Of a stretch of 64,000 bases of DNA, positions 9,791 through 58,830 are shown one piece after another. Location of the stretch: assembly GCA_012845835.1 (NCBI GenBank), contig JABAKD010000021.1:13122295-13186294 (forward strand), given 5' to 3'. The notes under the pieces are model-generated. The model was given only the letters and a program-made list of their open reading frames with translations. It ran no database searches and was not told where the DNA came from. The translations under genes and the position numbers were made by a program. The stretch comes from Undaria pinnatifida. Its lineage: Eukaryota; Sar; Phaeophyceae; Laminariales; Alariaceae. Each line of letters starts with the position of its first letter. Position 1 is the first letter of the stretch.

Positions 9791-9796
9791 CAGATC

Positions 9797-35013: not shown

Positions 35014-35939
35014 TTAGGTGGAGCTGTCCTGATTCTTGGTTGCAAGGGCAAAGTCGGTGCTGAGGGAGCATGACACGCGGTAGTCCTCGACAGTTCCACG
35101 GATCGCCTCATACCCTTGCATAACCTTGCGTCCTTCCTTGTCGAGCACCGGGCGGGCCGTCTCACCCAGAATGCCGGTGAGCGATTCGCTTTCCAGAGAC
35201 AGACCGTCCAGGCCTACGTCCATCTGCCAGAACTCCAAGTCGGGGAGAACACGACCATCCCAGTCAAGATCCCCATTGCCTTGGAAATTGGTACCGACGT
35301 TAAGGCGTACCGTGACAGAAGAAGTCACGATTTTGAACACAGAATAGATGGACTGCACATCGGCGAGGTGGTGTTGCGCGACGTACTGCACGCACCAATC
35401 CGGGGCGGCCATGTGGTCGAACCGTAGGATCCAATCCTCGAAGTTTTCCTTCACGGACAATTCGCGCTGGCCCTGAAGCATCTCGTTGTACATCCGGGCC
35501 CATATTGTGTCTCCTCCAAACTGCCGGCACTCCACCGGTAGATTTGACGCCGACACAGCAATGCCGTCAGTAACGTATTCGTCTCTGGAGAACCGAAGCA
35601 GATCGTCTACCTCCTCGCCGTCGACCATCGCACGGAGTCCGCCGTTGGAAAGGCAGGGGGACACGTCGGAGGGGCAGCCGTCGGTTTTGACATCGTACGG
35701 GTTCGTCACTTCGATAACCAGCGAATGACCCTGTGAAATGACGCTAACGCCTGTGATGAGCTGGCGGTCGGGAAACTCCTCGGGTAGAGGGGCGTTGAGC
35801 CGGACGTTGACGTTGATGCTGTTGGTGACATCGGAAACCATGCAGTACCAGCTGTTGTCGATGCCGGACCAATCAATCTGCTGCCCGAGGAGGCCTTGCA
35901 TATGTGGGTCACCGCACAAGCTGGTCCCCGGGTCGCATG
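35014..35939 (-). CDS. LRR gene exon 10: VWD-like terminal domain with stop
   Basis: A 926-nt terminal exon entered in phase 1 after ACTATGCAG. It codes 307 residues and ends at a TAA. It opens CDPGTSLCGDPHMQGLLGQQ followed by IDWSG and NSWYCMVSD. The CGDPH signature and following GQ and W/Y positions are those of VWD-like domains found in several stramenopile proteins. Later cysteines (DGCPSDVSPC, VEC, DWC, VSC) suggest disulphides. The tail (GTVEDYRVSC, then STDFALATKNQDSST) has no membrane anchor. The plus-strand frames opposite it are shadows. Confidence 0.9.
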
Positions 35940-38900
35940 CTGCATAGTTTGTATTGTCGACAAGGCATCAGGACGGAAAACGCGAACGGTGCACAAGAGC
36001 ACCAAGGATTTTGTGCATCTTGAAAAACAGTTTGACTGCACGCAGGGGATTTGCCGGCACGCTAAGGGGACACAGATACGTCGTCTTAAGGGCACAAGAG
36101 TGGCACGCGCTATGATTAGAGTATCATTGTTCGGGCCAACGTTATATGATATACCGGACATACTGAGGTTGGGGGAAACTGGGGGGAGCCCATTGTGGTT
36201 CAAACACCACATGCGTTGTAGAGTTGTTTTCGTTTGCAAAAAGCGTGGTCCTGAGGTTGCAATCCTCTACCTTTTCCGCATCTGTTTTCGGGTGGGGTAC
36301 GCATGTTTTTTGAGCAAGTGCCTCATGTATTTTGCATGCGCTGCCTCTCTCGTCGAATATGCCGTCATACATTTTAGATTCTTCCCGACATCCCGTGAAA
36401 TCAATATATTGTTGCGCTACTGGTGACAATTTAGTCTCCGCTAGGTTAGTCGTGGCACTAGCTATCTGCCCACTAGATACGATGTCAACAGGGAGGGTCG
36501 ACCGCTGGTGCTGCTGATTTTTGGCCATATGACGCCGCTTACGACGCATTTAACCCGTTCCCCGTCAGGATGTAGCACTAAGAGCATCACGACTGGCTCA
36601 TTCACCGGTGCGTTGCTTGAGCGCTTTCTCTCCTCCAACGATGACCGGACGATGCACCGAAGCCTCACGAGTGAATATTTGAAATATTTGAGGGCAACGC
36701 AAGAGGACTCAAAGACCCCGATACAAACAGTTGAAACATTTCAATCAGCCCTTTACAAGAACATCGTTCGTGGGAAGTGAGAAAACAGAGCAGGCATGTG
36801 ACACGTCGCGCCTGTATTGACAACAAATTAAAAACGTTAGGCTTCTTCCGGGTAAATACCTCGCGGGTCGGGTCGAATCTAACCTGACCCGCCCCGTCTG
36901 ACATGACCCCACCAGTAAGAATTTCAAAACGTGTTGACCCGACCAAACCCGACCGGACCCGTGAAAGATTCGAGACGTCTTCACCCGACCAAATGCCACC
37001 GGCGAGATCGTCAACACGTCCGCACCCGACCCAACCCGCGAGATTTGGTTATCATCCTGACCCGATTGGACTCGCCACAATCCTGGTGACCCGCGAGATG
37101 CGGGCTTCATGCGGGCCACGTTGACTTGACATGAGACATCTTTCACAGGTCAAGATCGAAAAGTCTACAGTCAGAGAATGCATACACACGTCGGTCGGTC
37201 AGTTGAATGGTCGTTAGACCTTACTTTCCCCAGGATGTTGTGCTTCATGGTCATTTTTGTCCTTCCGACACTGAAAGCCCGCTACACTGATTGCTTCAGC
37301 ATTTCGTGGTGTTTGTGCAAGAAAAAAATGAAAAAACGCAGCCTGCGCGCATGGGAAAAAAAGCCACGACTCTGGCGCCAGACCACTGCGTCGATTGGTC
37401 GAGAAACCACACGAGCGAGCTAGTTCATCTATGCTGTCTCCAGCCCCAGCAAGCGGCGTTGCTGAGCTGACTCCCGCAGAAAGACCATAAATGGGATGGT
37501 GCATGTGTCGAAAGTGGCTGGGGTCCGCGAGCGTACGGTTTCTGTTGCTGGTGCTTGCTACTGCCAGAGTGCTACTGCTGCTGCGTCGACGACGACTGTC
37601 CTTTCTTTTTCACGTTTGGTCACATTTCGTACTGGTATGACCGTTTTGTTGATTTTGGTTCGACTTCAGCTGGCACGGGATTCGCGTCACACGGTAGGCC
37701 TTGGCACGAGTACCAACAAGTTTTGCCTAGTGATTGTTTTCTACGCTGTGATGACATATGATCGGAGCATCGGCACGAAAGAAGCAGGACGCGGTTTATT
37801 TTGCATAACTTTCGCATCCGCGGGTCAAACCCGCGGGGCGCTTTCATGCCGAAACCTTCAGGTAAAAATTCAAAAATAGCGATTCCGCTCGCCAGATACG
37901 CGGGTCAGCCTAAACCATCTTGTGGACCATAATGGCTTGACCACACGTGACCCGTATCTCGCGGGTCATGACCTGAACCGACCCCTCAGATTTCAAGCCG
38001 CTCAGCTCGATTCGACCGAACCCGCGAGCTTTCGAGCCTTTTAACCCGACCCAAACCGACCATTATAATGTTTAAATGTGATCGGAACTGTCCCGCGAGT
38101 TTGGAAGCTCCTTGACCAAACCAAAGGGCCGGGTCATGACCCGTAAAAACTTATGTTTTCGTTTGCCCTTCCTCATGTCCTTCTGAAGCCAACGTCTTGA
38201 TTTTGCGTTTTATTATACGTGACCTCTTCTACTAGTACCGTAGAAGCGAGAACACCTGTTGATACGCGCCCATGGCAATCCAAGTTGTTAGAGCGATAGC
38301 AAATTTCGAAACCCTTACCGCTGCAGGTGTAACCTTCTGCTCCAGACGCGCACGTCAGACCATCTGCGCACGTCACCGCAGAGGCTGGCGTACACTCTGT
38401 TTGTCAGTTCATGCGTGCGGTAGACATCAGAGCGTACGACGGGGCACAGAGATATTTGGTAAGATTTGAGGCTATTATCGAGCACGTTATCTACAAAGGT
38501 CACACCGCGAACAAAGATAGGGACATCAACTGACGTGGCCGAAACACCCTGGCTGTGAATTATCCTAATACAGTATGCAGTACGTTTTTGGCCCTCTTTG
38601 GACACACGAAAACACAAGATATGAAACAGGAAGCCCCGTTATTTCTCGCGCAACGTCCACGTCAGCCTCCGTTGGTAACGACATGCCGTCGGTGACGATG
38701 GTAAACGTTATTCGTCGCCGAGGGCTGTTGATTGAGGTTGACACTTAGTCCATTTAGGCCCCGCCGGTTCTCACCGCACACGCCATTAGGGTCCGCCAGT
38801 GTAGCTGTAACAGAGTTCATAGGGTCGGCGAAGGTTCTGCGTTTGTTAAACCAATGCACGAGACGAGGGAAAGTGCCGAGGCATGTTTCAGTTGAGGTCA

Positions 38901-41900
38901 GACAGTCGGAAGGGGAAGAGTCGTCCGTGCACGCGCTATCTCTGGGATTCACCGTGATTGATTCCGTCGCAATTCGCCTAAAATCCACAATAGCCAGATA
39001 AGCACGTGTTCTCGAGCAAAACATCCAAACTGACGGTGGAGAATTTAATTTATAATCTGCTATCTCTTTGATGTATTCAACACTGGACGATTGCTAGCAA
39101 TCTAGGCCAAACCATGGGCCGCAAGAAAAACACAAAATACCACACGCAGGCCTACGAGCACCAAACAATCGTCATTCCTCCCTCATCCATCACTTACGCG
39201 GCGGGGATGCATTGCAGGCCTGAGTTTCCAGCAAGATTCCTGAAGGCAGGGAAAGCACGTTTTCGCAATGGCAAAGGTGGAGATACGTTCGTTTAGGGGT
39301 TTGGATGTTACCACGGTAATATGTTGTAGTTGACGAACAAGGACAAAGAGTAGGCACGGCATTGCTCGCCAAAGGGAACACCAGTGGCCGTGTTTGTTGT
39401 TGGCATCTCATGTAAACAAACGGCATGTTGTTGACCAAGCTCGTGTTTACATTGATTTGTTGTCTTGTTCATGGGCAAAAAAACAGGGGAACAGAGATCA
39501 CTTGGGAAAGGGCGTGAAGGCACGTAGCCACGTTCTGCGTTTTTTGCCTGCATGTACTGTCGTCAGAATGATCTATCTACGACCCGATTGAGAGCCACTC
39601 ACAACGTCAGCAAGTCTCCGTTTGACCCCAAGCCATCGAATATGCCCTCAGGTAGCGTCGTCAGAGAGTTGTCATTGAGATACCTGTCAGCTCGAATTGA
39701 ACACGTTGGAGAATACGTTGAGTTAGCAGCGAGGAAACATACGGTCTGGGCGTGGTCCTCGCTATAGGGGAGGGGGGTTGAATGCTTTACCTCTTAAGAC
39801 TTCTAATCAACTAGAAACAAGTTCAGAAAAGCTCGAATTTCTTACGCCCTCCGTACTTTAGACTTTTCCCGAAATTTTTTTTTGAAGGGAAACCCATTAA
39901 CGCCACAGTGGAGCCAACCGGCGCCGTGTACGGTACACAAAGCTAAACATATATACCACATTTATACCAGCAAACATCCATACATGAAACTGCAAAGGTT
40001 TACCGCTTCGGTCTGCCCAGTGCAAGGGGCTGGCAATTTAAAGGGTTCACAGTAGAGCAGTCATTTTCTTCAAGTCCGTACTTCAAACAAAGAGAGCACA
40101 TACATTACACAAAACGGTGAGAGATGCGAAATGTCGAACCCAACTGATTGGAATTTCCCAAAAACATCCACTTCAAGTGCCGCGTACACGACCAACGCGG
40201 CCGGTCATATCCCGCAGGGTTTACGCGCCTATTAGGCATGGATATGTGTGACCGCCTCTTACACGCAGGTTTATTGCGAATCAAGCAATGCTATGGTGAG
40301 CGGGTCGCTTGAGCAAATAATCCCCCCGTTCCGGTATGCATACACCCGTGTCACCTCATCCATACAAAACCTCGTTATTTCCGTGAAAACAGCTCCGGCC
40401 TACAAGAATAGAAGACGTAGCGGCGGTTTTGCCGGCTTTTGCCCTCCCTGCTGGAATACTGTTAAAATCATTGACCGTCCAGTGTGCATGACTTTAGAGG
40501 TGACCCGGTGGTTCGCCTCTGGATCTATTTTAATGTTTTAACCCTTCCTCTCTCCGGAGACGGTATATTAGACGCTAAGATCGCATGTACCAAATTTCAA
40601 TGATGTCGTCTCGTGATACTCACAGCGAGGTCATCGCTCCCAGGTCGGCGAAGATGTCGGGTGGAAGGGATGTCAGTTTATTGCTGCCAAGGTATCTAAC
40701 GCACGTAACCCGCAACGAAACGATGGGAGGGCGAACATGAAAACGCGTTAATAATCATCCATCAGGTAATATTTGTGCGGTGTTGTTCGTGATGGCTCAA
40801 TATCAATGGGGATCAGTGCGCCGGATATCAATTATACATTCGTGTGAGCAGTAAGTTTCACAATTGGGTGGGTGACGATCGAATTCGCCACATAAATGTG
40901 TAGAGCTGAGGCATGAACGGTCGCTCCACGGAGAGTAAGCAAAAAAGCTCCTGCAAAGACGTAAAAAACGCTTACATGCGTTCCTTTTTGATTTGTTATT
41001 TAGCTGACCGTTATTGGGAGCACAGACTCAGCCTGCTTGCCCAAAAAATAGGAAACCTGACGAGACCAGGCTACCGAGTATTATCTACTTTGCCTGACGT
41101 TTTCGCTGTGTTTTTTAGTAGATCGCCTCTCGAACGTCTGGTCTCTTGACAAATACCAGGCGCACACAAGCTAACCGCGCACGTTGCGTTACATTCGGTG
41201 TTGACTTTGTTTTAGTTGAACCTGGGTCTCTTTTTATCGATATTATCAGAAAGCAGCGCACATGGGCGGGGGCCGACTCCCGTCTTGAGGGTAACAAATG
41301 TGGCGTCTGCCACCTGGGCGTGTATGGGAGTAGTTCATTCGTTTAACCGATACCTCTCAGAGAGAAACCCGAAGCGGGGAGGAGAGCGGAAGAATTGCAG
41401 TAGAGTCGGAAGCGAAGACCCGGACGGTTTCGCCTTAGCCGGGCACCACGAGCTCTCGTCACCGTCTTTCGCTTATGCAACACATTCTTTGACGCACACG
41501 TACTAAATAGTTGGCGGAATTCCGGCGCCGAAGTTCCTCGTCTGTGCGCGGTAGCGATACTGACGACGAGGCTGTTTAAACTCGATTTTCTTCGCTCTCG
41601 AGTCTAGTCTAGAGATTTTCGATTCCGTGTTATTTCCTGTTCCTGGGTTGTTCACCGTTGTTGAGGTTGTGTATGTAAGCAAACAATGCAGTTGTCCATA
41701 TACATATTTGGCCACTTGAGGTTGGGCGACGATTGGAGGGAGACACATGACGGCTCGAGTTCCTTACCACGTGCCGGCATCAAGCTAGCTCATGGAAGTG
41801 CTGTTAAGAAACAACGAGACGGGCGTTAAACCTTGAACATTATTGTGTGACACCTGTAGTTTGATTTTGTATCCATGGGGGTTGCGAAAATACTCTCTAA

Positions 41901-44900
41901 CTGACAGGGGAGGTCATTGGCTGACTTGTCTGGCGATGAAATCTGTCTTCTCTGAGTGTGGAAGGAACCATATATTCATGTAATGTTTTGCATTGAGCAC
42001 GGCACATAGCCGGATGGCCTGCCGTTCCATAACGCTCACGTTGGAACACATGTCCATGTTCCACGTTGGAAAACCATAAATTGCGACAGAGAGATGGTTG
42101 CGTTCACGTCGCTCAACTGTCCGCGTGTTTAAGCCTAGTTACTCGGCATTTTTAGATTGCCACGGATGGGGGGGGGTGTTCTTGTGGCTTTCCTTGGCCT
42201 CCTGTATGCAGCGATATAATATATATATATATTTTTTTGGCGAGACGATATGCGTCGATTTACGTCATGAGTCGGTTCTTCGATCGCCTACAGCCTAACA
42301 TTTCCAACGAGATGAACAATTCTTTTGGGAACGGCTAATGACAATTTTTCTGTGTCTGGTCGAGAGGGGTATGGTGTTCGCGGTCAAGTCAACAACCGTC
42401 AGTATTACAGAGGCGATCTAAACAGTCTGTGAGAGAGAGTATGCCTTACGGCCCCAATGGTATGCATGCATCACAGCAAAGACACGACAACACTCAAAAG
42501 GCTTTCCGGGTGTACGAAAATACATAGACACATGAGGAGGCATCCTTTATTACAACTAGTCCAAAACATTGTACAAGACAAAGCCTCATCCGTGTTTGGT
42601 TTTCGTCTTCGGACAGAAACGTTTGACATAGAGATTTTGATCTGAGATACGTCGCCACACTGACCGACGCCACTTGTGTTGATCTCTGTCGATGGAGCAG
42701 CAAACTGCGTAAGAGGTGTCATGCGACCAGGGCGTCACTCGACGTAATCGTTCCTGGGGAGAACTTGTTCGGTCTTGCTGCAACTTACGACGGGGCAGGG
42801 TTGGCGACATATCGTCTTTGTACAGGTCTCATGCTCAGGACTACAAAAATAACAAAAGGGTGGGTTTGTCTGCAATACATGTAACAAACCAAAAAAACAA
42901 AGCAATGAAACCCATGTACGCGCGGTAACGAAGGCAGCACTCTTTGCTGGACGTGAACCGGTTAGCCCGCCGGAGACGGACCTCGTTTTGAGTGTTCCAG
43001 AGGGACAGTATAGGAAAATGATCCCGTTTGCTCACTGTGAGATGGGAGCTGGCGGGGAAGTGGGGAGTAATTAGGCGGACAGGACGGGACGTAAGTCGCT
43101 GATTTCTTGTCCGAACAAAACCATGAAACGAATCGGCACCAGGTCGGGAGTTCTGTCTGGTGCATGTTCTGTACAATTTGTCTGGATATAGTTCAAAAAT
43201 TGGTTGTGAACGATTCGGGAATCGGTCGGGTACCCAGATGGTCGGGGAAACGGTCAGGAACACAACTGGGACATCTGTCGGTAACATAGCCGGAATATGG
43301 CCGGGAGGTGCAGTTCGCAATGGTTGGGAACACGACGTAGAGAGCTGGCTGAAGACGTCAACAACGAACGGTTAACGAGTGGATAATGTTATCAGGTGTT
43401 ATTTGTCAGTTGCTTCAACAAACTTTCGCCGCGTTATTTTCTTTTCGAAACATTCAAATATATCATTTTTACATTTGTTCGATTTGTTTTTGTTCAAAAA
43501 AGAAGTCAACATATATTATACGACTAATGACTGACGTTTAAGAGAACAACCACAAGAGGAAGGGCGGCGAAGTTTAGCAAAATACATGCAAATTATACGG
43601 ACAATCTCCTTCACATGATACCTAACTGAAAGAAGTCAAATGGCAATAATCCAGTTACATGCATAAGTCATATGACATGGAAAAAGACGCAACCTATGGT
43701 AAAAAGGATGGAAACATCTTCCACGCAAATGATATGCGGGATGAGAGAAAGGGTGTGCGGAAGTATGCATGGGATGGGAACAACTGGGCGGACGACGGGA
43801 CGAGAGAAGTCGAGAATGCACATGACGGCGTGACGCAAAGCAATTCTGGACGGGAACAAGATGCCGCAAGTGATGACGGTAGACGGTGGGACAAAGATTA
43901 GGGTCGGGGAGGGGTCTGAAAGTCGCGGTCAGGGTCAAAATACACTAGCGGGTCCCGTTCCCGTCCCGAAAGTTCCCGACTCGACCACATTTTTCCGACC
44001 CGACCAATACCGCGCGTACCTATACGAAAAGCGGTGTTTGTTGAGTTATATATAGAGAAATCAGAATGTCTGTGGCAGGAACCACTGTCACAGGGGATTG
44101 TACAGAAAATACAACAACAGTCCGTGACCAGTCTTGAATGCAGCTGCTCGTCGCGTGCGCGCAAAGACACGCCCATCACGAGCAAGTTTAGGCTCTTGCT
44201 GATACTTTGGGGAAGCATGAGGTAGTAACCGGATTAGCAAGCCAAGCTAGTCACATTAGATTTTTCCTGTTGCCAAGCCAGGTATTTGACACTTGGGGTT
44301 ATACCCACGATCCGGGGATCGATAAACAAGGGCATCTGGCTGCACGTCCGAAGCGGTGCGTGTGGTGTACGTCGGAGCGGCGAGGATAGGGATTGTAGTT
44401 GCTGAAATAGATTAAAAGTGGTTGTTTGTTGTATTGGTGTCCTGCCACCGCAGCACTCGAAAACGAGATGGCGAGCCAAGGGGCAATGGCTAGCGATCTC
44501 AAGGGTGTCAAATCGATCGTGTTGCACTGAAACCTAGTAGTTCACCGTCGGTCAAGGCGAATGGTTGAAAAGTGCCGTCAGTCAAGTGCTGAATGAGCCC
44601 TCTCTTCGCATTTGTCTCACAACAACAGGAAAAGGTGCTAATTTGCTTTGTGATCACACAGTACATGGCCACATAAATCACCTCCCATGTTGTATATGGC
44701 AATACGTGTCTCTGTCGTAAAATTTAGCGATGTCAGAAAATATTGGTAACTGTATGATCGTGGTGACAAACAGTGCATCACCATATCACCTTTCCTGTTG
44801 TATTTGGCAATACGTATCTCTTTCTTATGATGAGCGATGTCAGAAATAAATGGTAACTGCAAATATTATATCCAATTTTCTAGCTTTCGATCCATGTATC

Positions 44901-47900
44901 GTACAACAACAAATTTGGAAGTTTTAACTCGTTATTTAAACTACACTCAAACACTGGGTTGCATGCTTAATCTAACATCAAACACTCTAGAATAGTAAAC
45001 ATTACAAGCCAGATGATATAAATGGATGTCTTATTGCTTTAATCGTAAAGTTGGTCCCCTTTTGAAGATTTTCAGTTTCCGCTCACAAATTGAAATATCT
45101 AGCCCCCACCCCCCTTCCCTGACCCAACGCCCTCTCTTTTCCAACCACCCGCACGACCGCCTAGACCTAGCACCACGCGTATTACAAGCCCCGACACATC
45201 TTTGATCTCACAGTCGAAGTGTTTTTGTGATCAAGCCTCCTGAAAAATCTCCCCTCCCCCTCCCCCCCCCTTATCGCTCTCCCTTGCTCAAACGCCCCAC
45301 CTCATACAGTCGTCCCCGCTTTAAAGACACTTTTCCGAAGGAAACTCCCCGCTATGATAACACATTTTTTTCCCAGAACTTGGTGCCCCGCAGATGTACA
45401 ATAATAAGGGGGGGTACCTTTTCCACTTTGCGCCCCCCCCCTAAAATGGTTTGGCTGGGAACACTGCTGTATAACATCGACAGCGGTCTGCTGCAGACCG
45501 CACTACCGCGTGTGGGTATGCAGTGATTTCTCCCATCTGCTGGCGGGTCGTTAGCTGCCGGCTTGAATCCATGTGGCAAACCCACGTGCCAGTCAAAGTC
45601 TCAACTCGTGTAGGGCGGTCAAAGTTTGGTATTTTTGCCTTTCTCGTGGAATTTAACGTTGGTATTCTTGTTCTGTGTTTTTGCCTTGTGTTGACCTTTG
45701 GGGAAGAACGGTGTCCTCTTTTCAGTGTATTCGCCCGATTTTTTTGTATGTTGTGGTCTGCGCTACCGACCGTTTGCTAGTGTCCTTCTGGGCGGTCGAC
45801 TGGGTTTGTTTGGTCCATATGTGGCGGGTAACTTGCGTCTATCGTATCAGAGCTAGTTCCAACGAACTGATGTGTCTCAGGTGTGTTCGCGATATCTCGG
45901 ACATGATGTTCACCGTGAGGATAACGCCTTGACAATAAGAAAAGCCCGCAACAACACCAGCGCTCTGCCGTACACGTTACAGCATGAGCCTGCATGAACA
46001 ACAGCGCACTGCCGTACGCATTACAATAGCTCCTTCCCGCGATTCGATGGTGGAGGGAAATTCAAAATGTGTAAAGTATTGGAGTGTACTACAGCAGTAG
46101 TGTTGCGTCCTTTTAAATCACGTGTTGTAGTTTTTAGGCAACACAGTTTCGTGGTCGCATTCCACCTTCAAATGCGCGTATTTTGACATATGTTACACCT
46201 CCATTGGCCCCAGGGACGGTGAGTTAGTGGCCTCGGAATTACAAAGACACTTCCCCGCTTTAGGAACACTTCCAGACAAAAAACGCGGTGTGTCTTCAAA
46301 GCGGGGTCGACTGTACCGAAATCCGCCAGGATAAAAAACTTTTCACGAACAGGATATCACCTCATCATCTTTTGAGGGCCATCCATGCAGCTGTTTTCAC
46401 CCCCCTTCCCGCCCCGAACGCCCCTTCTTCCCCACCACCCGCACCATCGCCTAGACCTAGCACCACACGTATAACAAACCCTTCACCTAAAAACCTTTTT
46501 CCCCCCCGCCCCCTCCACCCTTCGCCCTCGCCCGCCCCCCCCCGCCCCCACCCCTCAACTCTCCAAACCCCCCCAAACCCACCCCCTCGAGCACTCCGCC
46601 CTCTCTCTGCTCACTGATTGTACGACTTACGCCAGGATACATGATAAACTGATGCATTTTTGCTAAAACCTTCACATTCATCCCGTCAAAATTATGTAAA
46701 TTTTCCGCGCACAGATTGAGCTGCCCCACACGCACCACCCCCGCCCCCCATAAATAACTGGTGTACTTTTTTTTTTTTTCTCCAAAAACGTCAGATCTAT
46801 CCTTATTAAAAAGATTTATAGCTTACACGCACAAATTGCCCGCCTGTCCGCCCCCCCCCCCCTCTCTTCCTCCAACACCGCTCGCTTTTCATCGTAACAA
46901 AGCCTCCACGTCCTGCAAAACTGCGCCCCCCCCTTCACCGGTTATTCGACTTACAGGATCTACTTGATAAAGGATACATTATCCTCCACAGCTGTCAGAT
47001 TTTGTCCCCCTCAGAAACGTTTTTTTTTTATAGTTTCCGCGCACAAACTGACTTAAAAGACCCTGTTGACCCTGATAGCTACACTGTAGTTGTAAGGGGA
47101 GTCGCCGACTTATATCCTTGATGAGGACACACAACTCGTAATACGCGCGATCGGAGTATCACACACAGCTTGCAAAGATGAGTTTTGACGAAATCTTCGA
47201 TCTCACAGCTGGAGTGTATTTTCATTTTTTATAATACTCACGTGAAATCGTTGGTACCATAGTGGTACAATAGTCTACGCTCGATAACCTGTTCCTGACC
47301 GTCGGTATACTGAACAATCTTCGGGCCGCGTCTTCTCTGTGTCGGGTGTGTGAGGAGTTTCTTGGTCATTTTTCAAGCAAGCGGTTGCGTTGGCATATAC
47401 TACCTGGCTTGATGTCAAGGAAATGAACACCACTGAGCGATCATCTACTACATGTTAGGGCATGTTTTCATGAACACCACTAGCAAGAGCACCAGACATG
47501 GACGCGACATCTACAGGACTACAACATCTTCGACGACAGTGGGGAGAAAACAGGACGTATAAGTGTACACTATATTTAGTCTATAATAATGTGGAAAGTA
47601 AGTACAGACAGGGATGTTAACACTGCGGTAAACCACACAACCAACCTATTACGCAGGGTATTTCGTGCCTCCATCCGCTTACATGATTGCCTGACAACCC
47701 CTACTATTCCAAACGCAGTGGAATGTGCCTAACGAAGTAAAGTCACCCTCGCGTTCAATAGTGGTGACATCGCATGTCCACGTGAGACAACCTTTACGAA
47801 ACGCAGTAGCATATGCCTGACGAAGTGAAGTCACCCTCGCCTTCAATAGTAGTGACATCGCGTATATATGACGATTGCATGCCCACCTCAACTGCTGTAT

Positions 47901-50900
47901 TTGTAAGATGTATCTCTGTCTGAGAATTGGCGACCTCAGAGCCCCACAGCGGCACGGTAAGAATCATGGACGTGAAATCGCACATTTCAAGACAATAATA
48001 AGTTGAAAAGGAAGCACAAACAGACGTGATACACTGCCGACCCATCGCATACCCTCCTGAGACGACCTCTACGAAAAACAGTACCATTTACCTCACGAAG
48101 TAAAATCACCCTCGCGATCAATAGTGATGACATCGCATTATATGACATCACATACCCACCTCGCCTGATGTATTTGTAGGACGTATCTCTGACTTAAAAA
48201 TGACGACCGCAGAGCCCCACATCGACAAGGTAAAATCATAGGCGTGAAATCGTACATTTCTTTGAGACAAAAATAATTTGGAAAAGGAAGCACAGGCAGA
48301 TGTGTTAAAATTGCGGTAAACAACCTTACCAACCCATTACGTAGGGTATTTCGTACACACCGTGTGCATGATCGCCTCCCCACCTATGCCAAGCGAAGTA
48401 TTACTAACGAGGTAACGTGATTGAGCGCGTGTATACCAAGTATGACTAATGAGGTAACGTAATTGAGCACATGTATACCAAGCGTCGATTCGCATCCCTC
48501 CCTCTAGTGCTCAATGACGGAGGCAGCACATGGCCACATACATCACCTCGCATGCTGTATTTGGCAATACGTATCTCGTGCGTATAATTAGCGATGTCGA
48601 TAATAATGGTGACTGTATGATCATGGTGACAAACACAGTGCATAACCACATCACCTCGCCTGTTGCATTTGACAAAACGTATCTCTTTCTTATAATTAGC
48701 GATGTCAGAAAAAAGTGGTACCTACAAATATTCTATAAAATATTCCAGCTTTCGATCGCTGTATCATACAACCACAAACTGTGAAGATTTAACACGTTAT
48801 TTACTACACTTTGAACACTGGGTTGCATGCTGCATCTAACATCAAACCTTCTAGAATAGTAAACATTACAAGCCAGATGATATAAAGGGATGTCTTATTG
48901 CTTCAATCGTCAGGTTTGTCCCCCTTTGGGAATTTATAGTTTCCGCGCACACATTGAAATGTCCCGCCCCCCCCCCCCCCCCCCCCCTCCCCTCCCCCTC
49001 CACTGACCTCTTTTTTAAAACAAACCCCAACCCTTTTTCCCCCCGCCCCTCCGTCCCCCGATCCCCCCCCCCCCCTTCCGCCTAGTCTGTCCAAACGCCC
49101 CACTCACAATCAAAATCGGCCTGAGTAATAAACCACCTATACGCAGTTGATACCACGTCATTATCTTTCTGTCCATCCATGACAAAGGTTTCAATTATTC
49201 CCCCCCCCCCACCCCCCCCCCCCCCTCCAACGCCCCCTCTTTTCCGACCACCTACACGATCGCCTAGACCTAGCACCACGCGTATAACAAGCTGCTACAT
49301 ATCTTTGATCTCACAGCCGAAGTGTATTTGAATATTATTTGTGACCTAAACCTCCTAAAAATCCCCCCCCCCCCTCTTGCTCTCCCTTACTCAAACGCCC
49401 CACCAAATATCAAAATCCGCCACATTAATAAACACTTCACGCACAGGATATCACCTCATTATCTTTCGAGAGCCATCCATGCCGCTGTGTTCCCCCCCCC
49501 CCCCCCCCCCTCCAACGCCCCCTCTATCCCGACCACCTGCACGATCGCCCAGACCTAGCACCACGCGTATGACAAGCTGATACATATCTTTGATCTCACA
49601 GCCGAAGTGTATTTGAATATTATTTGTGACCTAAACCTCCTGAAAAATCATCCCCCCCCCCCCCCTCTTGCTCTCCCTTACTCAAACGCCCCACCAAATA
49701 TCGAAATACGCCACATTAATAAACACTTCACGCACAGGATATCACCTCATTATCTTTCGAGAGCCATCCATGCCACTGTGTTCCCCCCCCCCCCCCCGCC
49801 TCGAACGCCTCCTTCTTCCCCATCACCCCCACCTTCGCCTAGACCTAACACCACACGTGTAACAAACCCGTCACCTAAAGCCCTCCCCCCCCCCCCCCCC
49901 TCTCCCCCACCCCCCACCCCCGCCCCCACCCCCCACCCTCCCCCCCCAACCCATCCCAACCCCACCCCCTCGAACACTCCACCCTCTCTTTACTCACTGA
50001 TTGTACGACTTACCCCAGGATATACACGATAAACTAATGTATTATTTCCAAAAATGTCACATTTATCCCCTCGAAATTATAGTTTCCAGGCACATATCGA
50101 GCTGCCCCCCCCCCCCCCCCCCCCGCCCCAACCCCCCCCCCCCCCCCCCCTTCCCGCCCCCAATAATATACTGGTGCCAAAACCGTCAGATTTATCCCCT
50201 CGAAAGGATTTATAGCTTACATGCACAAATTGCCCCTTCCCCCCCCCCCTCCCCCTCCCCGCCCCCCTCCAAACCCGCTCGCTTTTGATCAAAACCAGGC
50301 CCCCCCTTTCCCTTCACAGCTGTCAGATTTTGTCCCCCTCAGAAACGGGTTTTATAGTTTCCGCGCACAGACTGACTAAAATCATCCTGTTGACCCTGAT
50401 AGCTACACTGTAGCTGTAAGGGGAGTCGCAGACCTATATCCTTAATGAGGACACACAACTCGTAATGCGCGCGATCGGAGTATCACACACAGCTTGCAAA
50501 GATGAGTTTCGACGAAGTCTTCGATCTCACAGCTGGAGTGTATTTAAAATTTTCATAATAGTCTACTGCAACAGGTACGTGGTGTAATATATCGCAGTGT
50601 ACGTACGTACTGCTGTGAACGCGTAAGATATGTCTATTGTGATAATGCTGTAGTTACGTATGGCTGATGTTGTAAACTATGAGTCATGATCATACCGATA
50701 TATTATTTTGTGGAGTGCGTGAACGAAATGGTCGGAGCCCCTCCTGTCGTGTCTGGCGATAATGATTGCAAAATCAACTTCGCCCGGTTGATTGTTGGTC
50801 GTTTCTGCTCTGAGACTACATTACATGGTATAATATGTGATGGTTGGGGCTGGTGCTAACCTTAATCCGTTCATGATGAAACTTACACCAACAAATGCGA

Positions 50901-53900
50901 CGTTCAATCTGCTGATGTGAGTTTGTCGAGGACTGTTGTCAGCGACTTCATTGATAAAAGGTTCTCCTGGGAGCATATATGCGCCAGCGGATGGTTTGCT
51001 CTCGTCAACTTTGCCCTTGATTACACACCTTGTTCGCGGAATGGGGCGACAAATGCACACTTGTCCCGAACCATTCAGTGTGGCTAGAGTGATATGTTGT
51101 TTCATGATGCACGCTGCGAGCCCGCCTTTAATGTACCGGATATCTACTTTATGCACTACCTACTACCTGGGATCACTTCCTAGCGCGCAATGACTAAATC
51201 ATGCTGTTATCGAAACACGTGGTGTGCAGAATAGTATACCATTATACTCTAGAGACATGTTTTGCGTAAAATTTTTACTCCTACAAGAATTGGAGCCGTG
51301 TGAATACTGCGGGCCGACCTTGTTGGCGACAGATATCTACTGTATTATCGCAGTCTAGATACATATCTTCCTACGATATTGGGACATCACGTACGAATTG
51401 AAATCGTGTCAAGTCCTACCAGGTGCGCCATGGTCGTTACACGCCGCAAACAGAATTCGCCACCGTTGAGTCGCGGCGATATCGTGAAGGTGGAGTCGCC
51501 GCCACAGGCTACTTGAAACAACCCGTGTAGTGCACCACAGTATATATCATGGGGCATCTAATCTGTCTTTTATATGATCTAGGATGCATTTTGGGACATC
51601 AACAACGAACGTTTGGCGTACGACTAATGCCTGGCGCAATGATGGCTAAACCACGCCACCAGCGAGAATCGCCGCAGGCGTGGTGGTTGCGTCACCCTCT
51701 CAGGTCGCACGACAGAATCTACATTACGTCGGTGTGGATAAGTTAATCTGTTTTACAGCTAGAAAGGACGGGGGGTAGTTGGCGACTTGTCGTCTTCGTG
51801 CAGGTTTCATACTGCGAACCACGGCATATATAAAGCATACCCTGTACTGGTATGCGGCACTTACAATGTGTGAAGGGATCCCATGTTGTCGAAGAGACCG
51901 GCTTCTACCGACTCGAGAAGACCAATGTCCAGGTCCCTGAGGAAGCATGTGCATGGATCGCAGTCAATGTTAACCGCGTTTCCCGTTCGTGCAGTGCGTT
52001 GCGAGATAGTTAAAGCAAGTTCACCAATTCCTGGTGGTCGGGAAACTTCTTCAACGGTCGACATCGCACAGGCGAGGTATCGGCGATGTTTGCGTAGTCA
52101 CTCATGGTATCAAGTTGTGGTACACACGATGTTTCCTGTAGACTACGCGCAATTTTTGCATTTCGGCTCCACGCGGGAGACTGAATGTTGACGGGTGCGA
52201 AACGTTTCTGGCTGACTCTCCTGTTGTGATCGACACCAAGCAGCTACCCCCTAACGCATGAATTTCGTTTGTTTAATAATGTGTACAACTCCTTTTTGAT
52301 CACCAGCGACATAAATAGAAAAACGTACTCCGGAGAATTTGTTAGGAAGTGGGGTTTTGCGTCCTTTTACTGTTGTTTGGCGTTTTGACCCCAAGTGACG
52401 CAACCAAAGCCAACAGACGAGCAAAGTAGCGTTGGGGCTACAATTACAGGGAAATTGAGGCGTTTCAGAGCGCCCCCAACCTTGGTTGAGGTCAACCAAA
52501 ACATTGGTGGTTGAGGTTTTCCAGTGGGGAAGAAATACAAAAGCATGCTCTGGTAGCTACAAACAACAACGTTTGGTTTCAGTCGAGTAGTTCCACATTT
52601 GTGCACGCCATCCCAACGTACAGCGTGGGGTCCAAAAAGGCTAAATACTATCTCCCGTCGACACTGACAAGACGGAGGCCCTCGCCTAAATCCGTCATTA
52701 CTCATCCCTTCACTCACAAATAGGTCAGGGACGACGCGAAAGGAGAAAAGGCGTCCACGTCGATTGTCGAGAGTTTGTTGTTGTTGAAGGTCCTGCCAGG
52801 CGCGACGGCAGCGCCAACAGAACGACAGAGAAAACATAGGTAACCGGGACCAGAAAGCATGTACTGTTTTACCATGGAGGAGATCAGCCACCGTTCATTG
52901 ACGTCTGTAGCGTGTACAAACTGACAAAAACAACGTCTACGCTGTCGTGAGCTTGAGAGAGCCTACACTGTGATATATTTACTTCGCGTGTGGTATGGTG
53001 ACGGGCGTTTCGCGTTATCCGCTTTTCGCTTTACATACTGGTCTAGAGCCATCCCACGCTAGTGGTGCAGCAGAGGTTTTGGGCCCCTATCATGAGTAGC
53101 TCAATGTCTCAGCAAAAGCATAACTTCGAAGACATATTCTTTGTGGCAATTTGACCAACGTTTCTACCCGCTATTGCGATAACAAGTTATTTACTTCAAG
53201 AATCACGCTAAACAATAGGGCCACGCTTGGGGAAGTCAACCTGCCTAACCTGGTCGGCCCCTGAACCCGCACCCCCCCTCTGTGAGACAAATCTATAGAC
53301 AAAGCATGATATCGTCGTAAGCCAAGGCCATACTGACGGTATGTAGAAAGACGAAGAAACGGGAGTGCTGCTGCTGAGTGACACACGGGGAAGCGGGGTA
53401 GGTAAGGGATAACGGCGGTTAGTTTCAGAATGCATTAAACGTAAACGCCAGCCCCGGACAGCTTGTGAGCCGAGCGGCCTCCTGAGCGGATTTGCCATCA
53501 TTATTCATCACAAAAAAATAGTGGATGCAGAGAAGCTATTAGAATGTGCTTGGGTTACGCTTGTCTCAGATTTACAAAAAAGGGAACCCAAATTTAACTT
53601 TCTCATTATTCAATACATTTCTGGCCACGCCTGACCTTTGTTCGTGCCGTTGAGGTATCCCCGAGATTTTGGATTGAAATCTGTTTATTGAGGCGCTTGC
53701 ACGGTTTTCATGAGCCGGCAGTTGACCTCGTGCACCGCTTGCACTTACTCTGCACCTTGTGACTTGCGATCGGTTCGCCTGAAACTAAAATGTGTCCGAT
53801 CTGTACACGTCAGGGTCGTGGCTTAAGCTGTATTGCAAGCTCAATTATGGTCTAATTGTTTGGAGCATACACTACCAGTGTACTTGCCAAGTAGTACTTA

Positions 53901-55971
53901 TGTGACAATGTTATTTTTTCGACGTTTGCACCCCGAGCCGAAAGCGACGTTCAACGGCACTACCGCATCCCCATAGACCACCCCTACGTATTTCTGGTCC
54001 ACAACGGGACGCTGAGCGCAAAACACGAAATTTGATCATACTACACAAGTATGTAACATTTGAGATGCCAACGTAAAGCAACCTCCGACCCTGGTCCAAT
54101 TTTGCGACCATGACATCGAAGGCAACGTGACCATTCTCGAGAAATTACTTTTGTCGCGCATCGTGTTACGAAATGGAGGTGCTGCTGACTTTTATGTACG
54201 GCTAGAGGGGGAGACTAGAAGTGACACTCACAGCGTCTTCAAAGCGCCCATGGACTGGAACAGATCCGCAGGTATCGTTGTTAGGTCGTTGCGATTCATG
54301 CTTCTGCAAAAAATCATGAATCGCGTTGAGACCAGCGCGGGGAGTAGCATGAAGGTGGGGGAGCAGAAACGCCAGAGACATGTAAGCACGAGAAGAACGA
54401 TAGAGAGATAGGCGGCCGACGCTTGGTTCAACGAGACTGTTTTGTCGTTAGCCCACTGAAGACAATGTATACAAGTTGTCTAATTGCTCTGTCGTCCACT
54501 GGCTCCAGCAAATCACCCACTCCCGCTGTCTTCGTTTAACGAGGCCTGGTGTATTTGCAATCACGACATCACTTGTTGCGGCTGCAGAGAAAGAAGCAAT
54601 GCGGAATACCGAAATAACGATATCGACTTCGGCCATCTGAAGCAGGGACTGCTCAGGCGCAAAGGAAGGAGATGTACGTCGCGTGCCACAGGTTAATGTT
54701 TCCAAAACCGTTGCACGCGCTTCATGCATGAAGGATACGGACGCACTTGTATCCTACTTATGTCGCGATTTATTGCTAGAGAATCATATTCTCTAGAGGC
54801 ATTTTGTGCTGAACAAGATACACCTTACTAATTCCCAACGATATGACACGACGGCCTGTTGCTGTTGCGGTTGTGATTTCAACTACCCATGCTTCACAAG
54901 AAAACGTTTTAGAGTTACTCTCAGCTGCATTTGCAAACCTGTACGAAGAGTTGACACCCAATTTTTGTCATGTCGTTTGCATCTGTTGACCGGTTCCAAC
55001 ACAGCATGGATCGCTATTCTGCTTCGTCGCTTCTTACGATGTTCTGTGCCCGTGACAGCGACACCGTCACAATATCGTTGGCAGTGGAAACTGGCCACAA
55101 CCAAGACGTGATAACCCTCTCTCTTATTAGTGAACTGTTCAGCATTAGGGTAAGCTCGCTTAGAATCGTCGAAAAGAAAAGCCAGGTAAGAGGCAGTGAA
55201 CCCGCAGTTTGAATATTCTACCGCAACAAACCCACTCGAATGTTCCCAAAGACATTGCACGTTCTGGACCAATGCCGTCTTGACGAGACTCTTCAGTGTG
55301 ACACTGACCCGTCTCGAGGCTCTGTCTCCGTCCCAGAGTTGTAGAAGTGGCATCAAAGTGTCTGTTAAGATCATATGTGAGAAAGGAGGAACAAGTTGGT
55401 TTGAAAGTAGCATTTACGTGGCAAAACAATGGAAAAAGACGGGGACACGTACAGGGAGATGATGTCGCTGCGTCCATGAGCGTCAATACACGCCCTGAAG
55501 TCGGGGAGGTCCGCGTCGGTAATCCCGCAGTTATCGAAGGCCCTGCATTATAAAGCACGAATAGAAAATGAGGATGGTCGATGAGTTGCAAGATATATGT
55601 GTGTGGAATATTCCGGGAGCTGGTTGTACGGTTGCCCTTCGAGTAAGTAGCCTTGGCATTGAAGGGCATACCACGACAACTTAAAACTTGGGCACCCTGA
55701 CGATGAGCGTGATTTGCACTAGTGATCATCAGTACGCGTCGACGCTACGTCACCTACGTTATATCTATTTCGTTCCCCTCGTTAGAAAAGCCCTGGTTCA
55801 AGACATATCACTACTTTCCAGCGAAGAAAAGCTATGAAACACTGTCACTCACAAGAAAGTTTGGGGATCACATCCCGAGAGGCAGCTGTTGAGACCTAGA
55901 TCCGGATCAGGCAAGCAGGCAGGGTCACACGTGCATGTGTCGAAACAATGGTTTCGGTCAAACTTCATGCC
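35014..55971 (-). CDS. LRR / EGF-like / VWD-like multi-exon gene, 5' end not found
   Basis: Ten exons were joined by eye: 55853-55971, 55453-55542, 54232-54303, 52718-52792, 51865-51936, 40624-40695, 39603-39683, 38775-38977, 38319-38396 and 35014-35939. They total 1788 nt, or 595 codons plus stop. All nine junctions agree in phase, and all introns begin GT and end AG. Domain order: a Cys-rich cap (residues about 1-70), five LRRs (71-194), a Cys-containing linker (195-261), an EGF-like segment (262-288) and a VWD-like domain starting with CGDPHM at 296. The first exon lacks a convincing signal peptide, so at least one upstream exon is probably missing. No membrane segment is seen, so a secreted or wall-associated protein is likely. 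LRR proteins of this exon style in brown algae have been proposed as recognition molecules; that role is inference here. Confidence 0.85.
36850..37105. repeat. CCCGAC-rich degenerate island in the last intron
   Basis: Repeated variants of GACCCGACC, CGGGTCGGGTCG and ACCTGACCCG over about 250 bp. Similar islands lie at 37810-38140 and 43900-44000. No fixed period was found. These are intronic in the LRR gene. Confidence 0.6.
37810..38140. repeat. CCCGAC-rich degenerate island
   Basis: Second island with the same words in both orientations (GCGGGTCA, AACCCGACCCAAACCGACC, GGGTCATGACCC). Together with the island at 36.85 kb it brackets about 0.7 kb of ordinary sequence, so both could be ends of one decayed element. 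Confidence 0.55.
38319..38396 (-). CDS. LRR gene exon 9: EGF-like segment
   Basis: A 78-nt, symmetric phase-1 exon, acceptor ACAAACAG and donor GTAAGGGTT. It reads CTPASAVTCADGLTCASGAE and then GYTCS. The Cys spacing and the GYTC ending resemble an EGF module, and symmetric phase 1 is usual for such modules. With flanking cysteines from exons 8 and 10 a six-Cys set is possible. Confidence 0.7.
38775..38977 (-). CDS. LRR gene exon 8: Cys-containing linker
   Basis: A 203-nt exon from the acceptor GTGGATTTTAG to the donor GTGAGAACC, entering in phase 2 and leaving in phase 1, which converts the LRR phase to the EGF phase. It codes 67 whole residues, including SACTDDSSPSDCLTSTETC and ATLADPNGVC. 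No named domain was recognised. Support comes from the phase match on both sides (TT|G before, G|AG after) and the open frame. Confidence 0.65.
39603..39683 (-). CDS. LRR gene exon 7: LRR 5 (81 nt)
   Basis: An 81-nt exon, acceptor GAGCTGACAG and donor GTGAGTGGC, phase 2 at both ends. It codes YLNDNSLTTLPEGIFDGLGS and then NGDLLT, which carries three more codons than the 72-nt exons in its C-terminal half. The split codon CT|G with exon 6 gives Leu. Confidence 0.9.
40624..40695 (-). CDS. LRR gene exon 6: LRR 4 (72 nt)
   Basis: Exactly 72 nt, acceptor ACGTGCGTTAG and donor GTGAGTATC, phase 2 at both ends. It codes YLGSNKLTSLPPDIFADLGA and then MTS, the most canonical repeat of the set. The split codon with exon 5 is TT|A, again Leu. 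Confidence 0.92.
40696..44630. other. Proximal part of the 11.2 kb intron
   Basis: I searched the minus strand here for further LRR exons by donor and leucine pattern and found none. An (AT)n tract lies at about 42214-42232. Open frames on both strands are short and unrecognised. Confidence 0.55.
43900..44000. repeat. CCCGAC-rich degenerate island
   Basis: A third, shorter island inside the 11.2 kb intron, with GTCGGGGAGG, CGGGTCCCGTTCCCGTCCCG and CCGACCCGACC. It is much like the two islands at 36.9 and 37.9 kb. Confidence 0.55.
44630..47235 (+). repeat. Composite dispersed repeat, copy 3, interrupted
   Basis: Starts within the sub-repeat block (ATCACCTCCCATGTTGTAT), lacking the left block, and runs through CATCAAACACTCTAGAATAG, poly-C blocks and the end GATCTCACAGCTGGAGTGTA at about 47200-47219. 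A 1007-bp element splits it at 45306. It lies in the intron between LRR exons 5 and 6 and is followed at once by copy 4. Confidence 0.8.
45307..46313. mobile_element. Tc1/mariner-type non-autonomous element, 1007 bp, TA duplication
   Basis: The left end begins CAGTCGTCCCCGCTTTAAAG. The right end, read in reverse complement, begins CAGTCGACCCCGCTTTGAAG. Matching continues into GACAC, about 25 bp in all. TA flanks it on both sides (45305-45306 and 46314-46315). Copies of the host repeat at 25.15, 49.40, 49.69 and 60.05 kb read CCCCACC, then A/T-rich bases, then GAAATCCGCCA without the element, giving natural empty sites. TA duplication and CAGT ends fit the Tc1/mariner/pogo group. No transposase motif is visible inside, so it is non-autonomous. 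CCCGCTTTA-type words recur just inside the right end. Confidence 0.85.
47268..50560 (+). repeat. Composite dispersed repeat, copy 4 (longest)
   Basis: The fullest copy: left block (GTTCCTGACCGTCGGTATAC at 47291), several ACATCGCAT-type sub-repeats, the CATCTAACATCAAACCTT segment, and poly-C blocks. Two tandem ~290 bp units each start with GATCTCACAGCCGAAGTGTA (49309 and 49596). It ends GATCTCACAGCTGGAGTGTA near 50524-50543. C runs of 10-20 or more occur near 48966, 49067, 49200, 49490, 49650, 49785, 49888, 50105 and 50133. Proline-rich frames read through these runs are artefacts. Confidence 0.85.
50560..51864. other. Distal part of the 11.2 kb intron, no gene seen
   Basis: Intron sequence between composite repeat copy 4 and LRR exon 5. 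A GTAAG-type donor with an open minus-strand frame at about 50885-50965 was considered, but it has no LRR pattern and does not match the chain. Confidence 0.5.
51865..51936 (-). CDS. LRR gene exon 5: LRR 3 (72 nt)
   Basis: Exactly 72 nt, acceptor CTTCCTCAG and donor GTAAGTGCC, phase 2 at both ends. It codes DLDIGLLESVEAGLFDNMGS and then LHT. The usual Asn of the LRR core is replaced (IGLLESV), so this repeat is somewhat divergent. It is followed by the 11.2 kb intron. Confidence 0.88.
52718..52792 (-). CDS. LRR gene exon 4: LRR 2 (75 nt)
   Basis: A 75-nt exon after GCGCCTGGCAG, ending at the donor GTGAGTGAA, phase 2 to phase 2. It codes NNNKLSTIDVDAFSPFASSL, a slightly longer repeat with one extra residue before the final Leu. 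Both split codons restore Leu (CT|G and TT|G). Confidence 0.85.
54232..54303 (-). CDS. LRR gene exon 3: LRR 1 (72 nt)
   Basis: Exactly 72 nt between the acceptor TTTTTGCAG and the donor GTGAGTGTC, phase 2 to phase 2. It codes one complete LRR, NRNDLTTIPADLFQSMGALK plus junction residues, with the Leu, Ile, Phe and Leu spacing of a 24-residue repeat. Confidence 0.9.
55453..55542 (-). CDS. LRR gene exon 2: LRR N-terminal cap
   Basis: This 90-nt exon starts after TTATAATGCAG and ends at the donor GTACGTGTC, both in phase 2. It reads AFDNCGITDADLPDFRACID followed by AHGRSDIIS. The two cysteines and the DADLP motif fit the segment that leads into the first LRR, and the split codon CT|A gives Leu. 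Confidence 0.85.
55853..55971 (-). CDS. LRR gene exon 1 of model: Cys-rich N-terminal segment
   Basis: This 119-nt exon opens after GCGCACAG and ends phase 2 at the donor GTGAGTGAC. Six cysteines sit in CFDTCTCDPAC and NSCLSGCDPQ, a pattern that suits a disulphide cap before LRRs. Its last codon is split TT|G, giving Leu with the next exon. It contains a Met codon near its start but no hydrophobic leader, so the true start is probably further upstream. The 5' acceptor is the least certain of the model. Confidence 0.6.
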
Positions 55972-58830
55972 CTGTGCGCATCAGCATGTGACATTATATT
56001 GTTTGCTTCTCCGTCGGGGGATCCGTGCGATTAATGCACACCCTGAAATACCTCGCACAGGTTGTGTCCGCCAGCAGGGGCGCTTAAAACATGGGGGGGA
56101 AGAAAAGGAAAAAATGAGAGGGGCAGACATCTAGCTGGGTCGGTCTACTTCGATCTGCTGACACACCCAGCACTAACCCTGACTCGCTTGTGCTCGACCT
56201 GGTCTTGCTACCCAACTTGTGAGATCTACTCTAGACAGTGAGGGCGGAAGAGGCACCAGGTGGCCTTTTTTTACGCCCACGCCAAAAACCGCATTCCCAG
56301 ACCCAAACAGAAACATGCCCAACTTACCTCGTACAATGAACCATGGCCTGCCTATCGCAACATTTACGGAGCAGACCGTTACTTTTTTCGCCAAGATAAT
56401 ATCCCTTATTGGTTCCTTCTCCGATGGGAGATAGGTTCAGCCAGTACACCCTACATCCTAACACCAACGCGAGAAGGTCATGTGCGCCAGCACGGCTGTT
56501 TAAAAATATGTGTTGTTGGTGTGTCAGTTTCAAATCGTATATTTGTTGTCCTAGGCTCGGAAGGGTCGCAGTACAAATATTTTCTTCTATCGAACTTTCT
56601 CGTGTAGCATTAATACAAGATCAAAATTGAAGGACATGCGGTAAACACAAGACGACTTGGACATTGTTTCTTACCGCTTACTGCGATACAGACAGATGCC
56701 CCCAACGAGGCCGTAAGCGTCTTGGTCAACCGCACCATCGTGAGCCGGGCGTTCGACGCTCAGTTGTGATTCCCTGGAAAGTGCTGTATCTGCCACGCAA
56801 CAAAACCGCACCGGACACCCGCACCCACCGTGCACGTCAACACGCCCGTTAGGACCCACGCGAACGAACAAAAGTAAAAACCTTTCGTCAACGCTGAACA
56901 GCCAATGCATCACAAGTTACTCATTCTACGTCGAAGGGGCACTGTTCATCATCTGAGGTACCTCACAGCAGTTGAGGAGCCCCATACCTCTCGAGGCCAA
57001 GATACAGGTTGTTGTGCAACCTAAAGTGCAGCCCGATGAACAAATCCCATTGACAACAGCCTCCGGTATTCTACACAAAACGATCAGTTTCAACAAGTGA
57101 AACTAATGTCTTCATCGTAGCACGCGTCGAATAAACTACTACATACAAGTAGTGTTTTTGGGGGGAACAAGAATAGGCAGCAAACGTGTGAAAAAAACAT
57201 ACACAATCCTAAAAACAATACAAGCAAGCGGTCGACAGGCGGCACGGAATGGACGTATCCGCCGGCGGACGTAAAATCGGTGCCCAGCGCAAAAATATAC
57301 AACCACTTCTGCATTTACTAGGATGCCGGACTCATAAAAAGTGAGTAAGGAGCTTATACTAAAAAAATAAAATATTTTCAACATATGCTGGCCAAACAGT
57401 ATACTAAACTATTTCCACAATCCGCGATTGCCAGATGTAGAGCAGCAGCACTTGACGCTCGATCAAGAACGGCACCGCGAGCGACACGTTTGACTTCGGT
57501 CGGTGATAAATGTTGCATGACACTGGCACCTGCCGAATCTTGTCCGAACATCAACCGACGTGTGTCTTCTTGGCGTGACGAGTGGTATGATAATAGTTAT
57601 CGCTTTGATTGTGCAAAAATAGCATCGTGGTCAACCGGGTTCTGTCTGTGAATAGGCTGTCAACACATTGGTTGTGTGGAGGTTGTCTTCTATCCGAACA
57701 GAGATGCAGAGGTTTCACCGAAGTGTCTGCTAACATCACTTGTGATCCGGAGTATGAAAACAAGGTTTTAAAAAGGGCGCTTGAGGACAAAGATGGAGGC
57801 GAGAGGAAAGAAGGGATGGAAGAGAGAGCGGTTATCGCGAGTTTCATGACCACTTGATCATCACGGAACAATTCTCGTGGTCCGGTAAGATACCGGGACA
57901 ACGAGACCACCTTATCATACCCGAATTTAGGTTTACATTCTAGGCTGTGGTCATCTTATTCGTGCGAATAGACTGCTCGAATAGGCTGCGCATTATTTTG
58001 ATTTGGATATAATTTCATACTCTTAAGCCACTAACTCAAAATCGTTGAAAGGTAGCACTATTAGTGACGGAAAATGTCCACATCGGCCAGACATGTCCTC
58101 TAGTCCGAGAACCACCCTCCCCCCCCCCCGACACTTAATTAATGCGGGTTGTACAGGAGACCAAATATATCTTCTGCGCTTGGTCTGAAGGTAAGGCTGC
58201 TCACTAGAGTTTGTTCAAGACCAGTGCAAGCAGGAAACACTCGCTTCTTACACGTACACATCATACAGTTCTTATAGAAATATCGTTTTTTGATAATGTG
58301 TTACCGGTGGGCGCAGGTTGACATTCATGTCTTTGAATTTCAGGGATATCTCAATGACAATTATTTTGAATAAATGAAAAAGTGACTTCCGCTACGGCAA
58401 CAAACGTTCTTTCGAATTCGTTGACCCCGGCCTCTCCCCTCCCCAAGAATGGTTATCGGACGACGAAGGAGAAGGCGGCAACATGCTTATGTTCCGAGCA
58501 CACATGAGGTCGTCACTTGCTCGATCCGGATACGCAACGCAATAGATTTGTGGTACATTTAAAACCAGCCGAATTCCGTAGTGAGTGGCGGGTGGCGGGG
58601 AGCTGAATTGCGATTCAACTCCGTGCATCTTTTGCACAACGGATCCGTTGGTGTACTTTGCCTTCCAACACAGTCACGATTGATAACGAATCAATCTCGA
58701 TTTTGACCGTGCATCAAGTCATTAACCTGTGCCAGCAACGATCTGCATGTTTTATGCAACTATCACATGTGTGTCGTTTGCCAAATATCTAAATTAGGTA
58801 TATATATATACCTTTGCGGTAGGCGACACT
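55972..58830. other. Region upstream of the LRR gene model
   Basis: The missing 5' exon with the signal peptide, and the promoter, should lie here or further right. Minus-strand frames with a Met and a hydrophobic stretch exist, for example MLKIFYFFSISSLLTF near 57384, but none could be joined with confidence. No repeat or second gene was identified. Confidence 0.45.

Follow-up and report, generated by a model that had tools for sequence, protein, structure and literature searches.

A spread-out one-LRR-per-exon gene model with an unclassified C-terminal tail in the brown alga Undaria pinnatifida

Genes that carry each LRR on a separate exon, with a constant intron phase, are an established type. 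In brown-algal ROCO genes each LRR is encoded by a 72-bp exon, which is termed 'phase 2' in PMC11378527 (2024; Zambounis et al. 2012 as cited there). That paper also lists 15 Saccharina japonica sequences outside the ROCO genes that have such exons, most of which consist of LRRs only, and points to the gonadotropin receptors (LHR), whose LRR exons are of similar size and share the same intron phase 2. LRR genes of Tetrahymena are characterized by 90-bp exons, phase-2 introns and large recent arrays (PMC6564038). Ectocarpus and oomycetes have LRR receptor kinases, stramenopile proteins whose LRRs are extracellular (PMC3268121).

Here we analysed a stretch of 64,000 nucleotides from Undaria pinnatifida (the window), in which an earlier note had proposed a spread-out minus-strand gene with one LRR per exon. 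This proposal was supported, with an 11-exon open frame and with all five LRR exons beyond chance. Like the brown-algal ROCO genes of PMC11378527, the locus has a single LRR per short exon and a fixed intron phase; unlike them, it lacks a ROC-COR GTPase and its LRR exons are mutually diverged. The codons of the ROCO exons are placed at nt 3–71 there, versus nt 2–70 here; the splice registers differ by one base if the numbers of that paper are taken literally, and are the same if its 'phase 2' label is. From brown-algal NB-ARC-TPR genes the model differs by having neither NB-ARC nor TPR in the Pfam scan, from gonadotropin receptors by the lack of a seven-helix membrane domain and by a Cys-rich exon and an unclassified tail, and from the Ectocarpus and oomycete LRR receptor kinases by the lack of a kinase domain and of a strongly hydrophobic stretch. 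With the Tetrahymena genes (PMC6564038) it shares short fixed-length LRR exons and phase-2 introns, but here there are five diverged exons of 72–81 nt. The LRR sequences resemble those of IGFALS, LRRC15, the Nogo receptor and VLR, whereas the present cap is unrecognised by Pfam, there are only five full LRRs and the C-terminal part is another one. With the search terms used, the open-access literature yielded no LRR-EGF-VWD gene in algae, and no description of one LRR per exon combined with a downstream Cys-rich exon and such a tail was found there. Genes split in this manner have precedents; what is unusual is the tail.

Exon structure of the minus-strand gene model

Exon joining on the minus strand between positions 55971 and 35014 yielded a single open frame that ends at a stop. 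The model comprises 11 exons and 10 junctions over 21 kb. Counted from the ATG at 55968 it has 561 codons; counting from the acceptor at 55971 gives 562 residues. The joining in frame at every junction had been claimed before; the open frame bears this out, although with eleven exons and ten junctions instead of ten and nine. The previously given length of 595 residues was not reproduced; a linker that starts at 38935 rather than at 38836 would give this length, counted from 55971.

Along the model, the order is cap, LRRs, linker, Cys-rich exon, long final exon and stop, with all exons on the minus strand. Exon 1 (55853–55971) encodes the Cys-rich N-terminal cap, contains the ATG at 55968 and has an acceptor-like CACAG ahead of 55971. 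Exon 2 (55453–55542; 90 nt, phase 2-2, donor GTACGT) contributes the LRR-entry segment FDNCGITDADLPDFRACIDAHGRSDIIS. The full repeats follow as LRR1 in exon 3 (54232–54303, 72 nt), LRR2 in exon 4 (52718–52792, 75 nt), LRR3 in exon 5 (51865–51936, 72 nt), LRR4 in exon 6 (40624–40695, 72 nt), which lies 3′ of an intron of 11,169 nt, and LRR5 in exon 7 (39603–39683, 81 nt), each of them phase 2-2. Exon 8 (39198–39239; 42 nt, phase 2-2, acceptor TTCAG, donor GTAAGT) adds a half LRR or LRR end, NLAGNSGLQCIPA, and exon 9 (38775–38836; 62 nt, phase 2 to 1), which was picked for frame, forms the linker TFADPMNSVTATLADPNGVC. Exon 10 (38319–38396; 78 nt, phase 1-1, donor GTAAGG) is Cys-rich and reads by eye as EGF-like, CTPASAVTCADGLTCASGAEGYTCS. 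Exon 11 (35014–35939; 926 nt, stop TAA) encodes the unclassified tail of 307 residues.

The linker is the weakest exon of the model, as several candidate acceptors preserve the frame: in addition to 38836, in-frame starts exist at 38935, 38941, 38977 and 39082, giving five acceptors that all use the same donor. An alternative frame for exon 10 (VYASLCGDVRRW...), which can be extended into the final exon via another acceptor, drops the cysteine pattern and was rejected by reading. The donors read GTRAGT in 7 of the 10 cases, the others being GTACGT, GTGAGA and GTAAGG, and the acceptors are CAG in nine cases and TAG in one. The splice sites outside the LRR exons were picked to be GT/AG, so their consensus is no independent evidence, whereas the ends of the LRR exons are set by the repeat. 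The cap, entry, half-LRR, linker and Cys-rich exons, which were added by frame or by eye, have less independent support than the LRR exons.

No stop-to-stop ORF of the window is longer than the one that contains the final exon (frames across N runs excluded). GC3 of the exons is 0.683, compared with an intron GC of 0.483. In a codon-bias scan that was trained on the same gene, the sole passing segment of the window is located within the final exon, and none of the short exons passes. Phase-matched scanning of all ten introns for extra exons (for intron 5, sizes of 60–99 nt only) returned open mini-exons, none of which was LRR-like or EGF-like by eye. On the opposite strand, a 212-aa open frame (35788–36423, plus strand) runs antisense to the start of the final exon and to the preceding intron; among the stop-to-stop ORFs of the window it ranks second in length.

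Intron 5, with 11,169 nt, is contrasted by the remaining nine introns of 310–2,379 nt. Within it (44677–50563), segments near 44.7–47.2 kb recur near 48.5–50.6 kb; they are mostly 3.3–3.9 kb apart and mostly 74–93% identical, with poly-C-rich units, and a tandem unit of 285 bp occurs at 49207–49865. Repeat expansion may thus explain the size of this intron.

Repeats were also observed elsewhere. A satellite-like array at the left end of the window (4–3390) has a 325-bp unit in about 10.5 copies with 77% matches, and a tandem array at 21870–22582 consists of about 7 copies of a 107-bp unit, for which a 202-bp unit was reported as well. Ten of the 39 ORFs of at least 125 aa were scanned for family matches. 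Nine had none, and a 129-aa ORF on the plus strand (9785–10171) weakly matched a Tn5 transposase dimerisation domain (E 0.0067) and PAS_5 (E 0.0029) below cut-off, perhaps by chance. Rfam gave no match over the window, and no tRNAs were found in it with the bacterial code.

The five LRR exons

Each of the five LRRs occupies an exon of its own with constant phase 2-2. The exons measure 72, 75, 72, 72 and 81 nt, in 5/5 cases the cut falls after the second base of the same leucine codon, and all five are preceded by AG and followed by a GTRAGT donor. Only three of the five have exactly 72 nt.

To judge these exons against chance, open phase-2 mini-exons of 60–102 nt between YAG and GTRAGT were collected from both strands and scored with a general LRR pattern, which is the textbook one; the weights were chosen after some of the exons had already been seen. 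The minus strand contains seven such mini-exons, five of which score 11.7–14.7 and the others 5.5 and 4.0, the latter being an internal part of LRR4. On the plus strand a single mini-exon was found, with a score of 5.5, hence none of at least 11. When a 64-kb strand was simulated 100 times with a second-order Markov model, scores peaked at 10.7, short of 11. The five LRR exons are thus far beyond what chance yields. In a six-frame scan of the unspliced sequence, LRR1, LRR4 and LRR5 ranked at the top, while LRR2 and LRR3 were not distinct from noise.

An independent test of the LRR exons is provided by Pfam. The joined protein matches LRR_8 with an E-value of 5.9e-23 and 80.8 bits (cut-off 27), and LRR_5, LRR_4 and LRR_1 likewise exceed their cut-offs. 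Taken singly, LRR1 (E 0.01), LRR2 (E 0.079), LRR4 (E 5.4e-4) and LRR5 (E 0.01) give weak LRR_8 matches below cut-off, and LRR3 has no Pfam match.

In pairwise comparison, the LRR exons are identical at 32/72 to 43/72 positions of their DNA (44–60%) and at 4/23 to 11/23 positions of their protein sequence. Both strands of the window were searched for a further LRR exon of 60–102 nt with YAG and GTRAGT flanks, and none was found. Near-identical or expanded LRR exons, as looked for in exon-shuffling recognition genes, were thus not found within the window. Shuffling predicts similar or expanded exons; these are diverged and without extras, which gives them the look of old, settled repeats.

Cys-rich exon, C-terminal tail and localisation

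The modules downstream of the LRRs had been read in the earlier note as EGF-like and VWD-like, and neither family assignment was borne out. Exon 10 reaches the cut-off of no Pfam family. The EGF profiles stayed below it (hEGF, E 8.6; EGF_laminin, E 0.57), as did the best weak match, DUF7630 (E 0.056). Seven PDB matches of the Cys-rich piece, the best being granulin (E 0.054) and one being notch (E 1), were set aside. The label EGF-like, a reading by eye, is to be treated as a lead rather than a finding.

The tail starts with CDPGTSLCGDPHM and contains CGDPHM near its start and GILGETARPV near its end. The motifs CGDPH and GILGET resemble motifs of VWD domains and of the plant Root_cap family; no Pfam match was obtained, so the tail was not assigned to either. 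With the tail and its pieces, no Pfam family was listed up to an E-value limit of 10, a search in which the HMMER filters remove most matches above about 0.1. In particular, no profile match to the VWD domain (PF00094) was found in the tail, and NCBIfam and PHROGs gave no match. Against the PDB, the whole tail had one match (E 0.93) and the CGDPH piece matched two pH 6 antigen sequences (E 0.17), all of which were taken as chance. An AlphaFold2 model of the tail, computed from the single sequence and no alignment, had a mean pLDDT of 32.3, too low for the fold to be read from it. Relatives were sought in the collections viral_contigs and genome_contigs, of viral and prokaryote sequences, respectively, by a single-sequence search that detects close relatives only; one pattern match in the former and nine in the latter were obtained, and none was confirmed. 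Three patterns of the tail motifs hit 20 loci in viral_contigs (2, 8 and 10), and reading the motif frame in 20/20 loci classed all by eye as chance. VWD-like is therefore a lead and not a finding. Of the earlier expectation of an LRR or VWD family match for the translated exons, only the LRR part, with its LRR_8 match, was confirmed.

Among the best 60 of 312 distinct PDB sequences matching the model, IGFALS (7.2e-40) ranked at the top, followed by LRRC15 (2.5e-38). The others among these 60 include LRRTM, the Nogo receptor, LGR4, LGR5 and lamprey VLRs, as well as designed LRR proteins and SHOC-2. We take IGFALS, LRRC15, LRRTM and the Nogo receptor to be extracellular LRR proteins, and SHOC-2 to be cytosolic. 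These similarities support the view that the LRR protein is closest to extracellular ones, as judged from its sequence. A strongly hydrophobic stretch is absent from the model (19-residue maximum 1.22), and none of its 22 cysteines falls within the five full LRRs. Both features are consistent with secretion. There is no N-glycosylation sequon in the 561-residue model. The cap exon had no match in Pfam, and its five PDB matches (best E 0.17) were discarded. The Pfam scan of the model, with a limit of E 1, returned LRR families only and no ROC-COR, NB-ARC, TPR or kinase domain.

A candidate signal-peptide exon, MVRLTKTLTASLGASVCIA, is located at 56682–56738 on the minus strand, with donor GTAAGC and phase 0, and fits the phase-0 acceptor at 55971. 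The real stretch contains three such candidates, and simulated DNA of the same length a mean of 1.1, with at least one in 59% of 200 runs. As simulated DNA yields similar candidates, the exon at 56738–56682 is no better than chance and no evidence for a signal peptide. The suggested secretion thus fits the hydrophobicity profile and the cysteine placement, and the signal-peptide candidate adds nothing to it.

Proposed function and alternative explanations

The locus is probably an intact eukaryotic minus-strand gene, and its product a presumably secreted, soluble binding protein of the LRR type whose tail is unclassified. The exons would be spliced into one transcript. The solenoid of five LRRs with its entry and end segments would bind a partner outside the cell by its concave face, and the Cys-rich module and the tail may anchor the protein to the wall or matrix, or allow self-association. 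Several observations weigh against this reading: the model lacks an N-glycosylation sequon, its PDB matches extend to designed LRRs and the cytosolic SHOC-2, the signal-peptide candidate is at chance level, intron 5 is long enough to separate two genes, exon 9 was selected for frame from several candidates, and neither the tail nor the Cys-rich exon reaches the cut-off of any family. Skipping of any one of exons 2–8 would preserve the frame, since all seven are phase 2-2. A further-reaching version appears unlikely to us: a secreted recognition or adhesion protein, its LRR number variable via in-frame skipping of the seven consecutive phase-2 exons, built on a polymerising, VWD-like wall domain not described before, which would make it the soluble equivalent of the ROCO and NB-TPR candidates inside the cell.

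It has to be weighed against this gene model whether the locus belongs to a fast-evolving system of brown algae that creates diverse recognition receptors by shuffling LRR exons or splicing them alternatively. The single LRR per short exon, all phase 2-2 as in brown-algal ROCO genes, and the 15 non-ROCO sequences with such exons in S. japonica would fit (PMC11378527 for both comparisons). The model, however, is without a ROC-COR or NB-ARC domain, its LRR exons are 44–60% identical in DNA with two of the five not 72 nt long, and no further splice-flanked LRR exon was seen in the window nor, by eye, in the introns. We consider membership in such a system unlikely, and inside the gene the idea of fast-evolving recognition by exon shuffling found no support, given the same divergence and the lack of a further LRR exon in the window.

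The 11-kb gap raises the question whether two genes have been joined, a 5′ LRR gene of exons 1–5 and a 3′ gene with LRR4–5, the Cys-rich exon and the tail. This division, which we regard as quite improbable, draws on the 11,169 nt of intron 5 versus 310–2,379 nt for the other nine, but both phase and LRR register agree across the gap, and its duplicated repeats can account for its size; the codon scan marks no long coding segment there, but the same scan passes no short exon. The repeats within the large intron, together with a signal-peptide exon no better than chance, would fit a decaying pseudogene or unexpressed relic. Against such decay stand 561 codons over eleven exons with 0 stops and 0 frameshifts, consensus splice sites exactly at the repeat ends in 5/5 LRR exons and a GC3 of the exons well above the intron GC, which leave this explanation very unlikely.

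For the intact gene, confirmation by transcripts would make it a likely extracellular addition to the one-LRR-per-exon genes, and its tail may then define a new domain family. It would also show that LRR genes composed of far-apart exons of roughly 72 nt can evade ORF-based annotation, and that counts of such genes in genomes with long introns may be too low.
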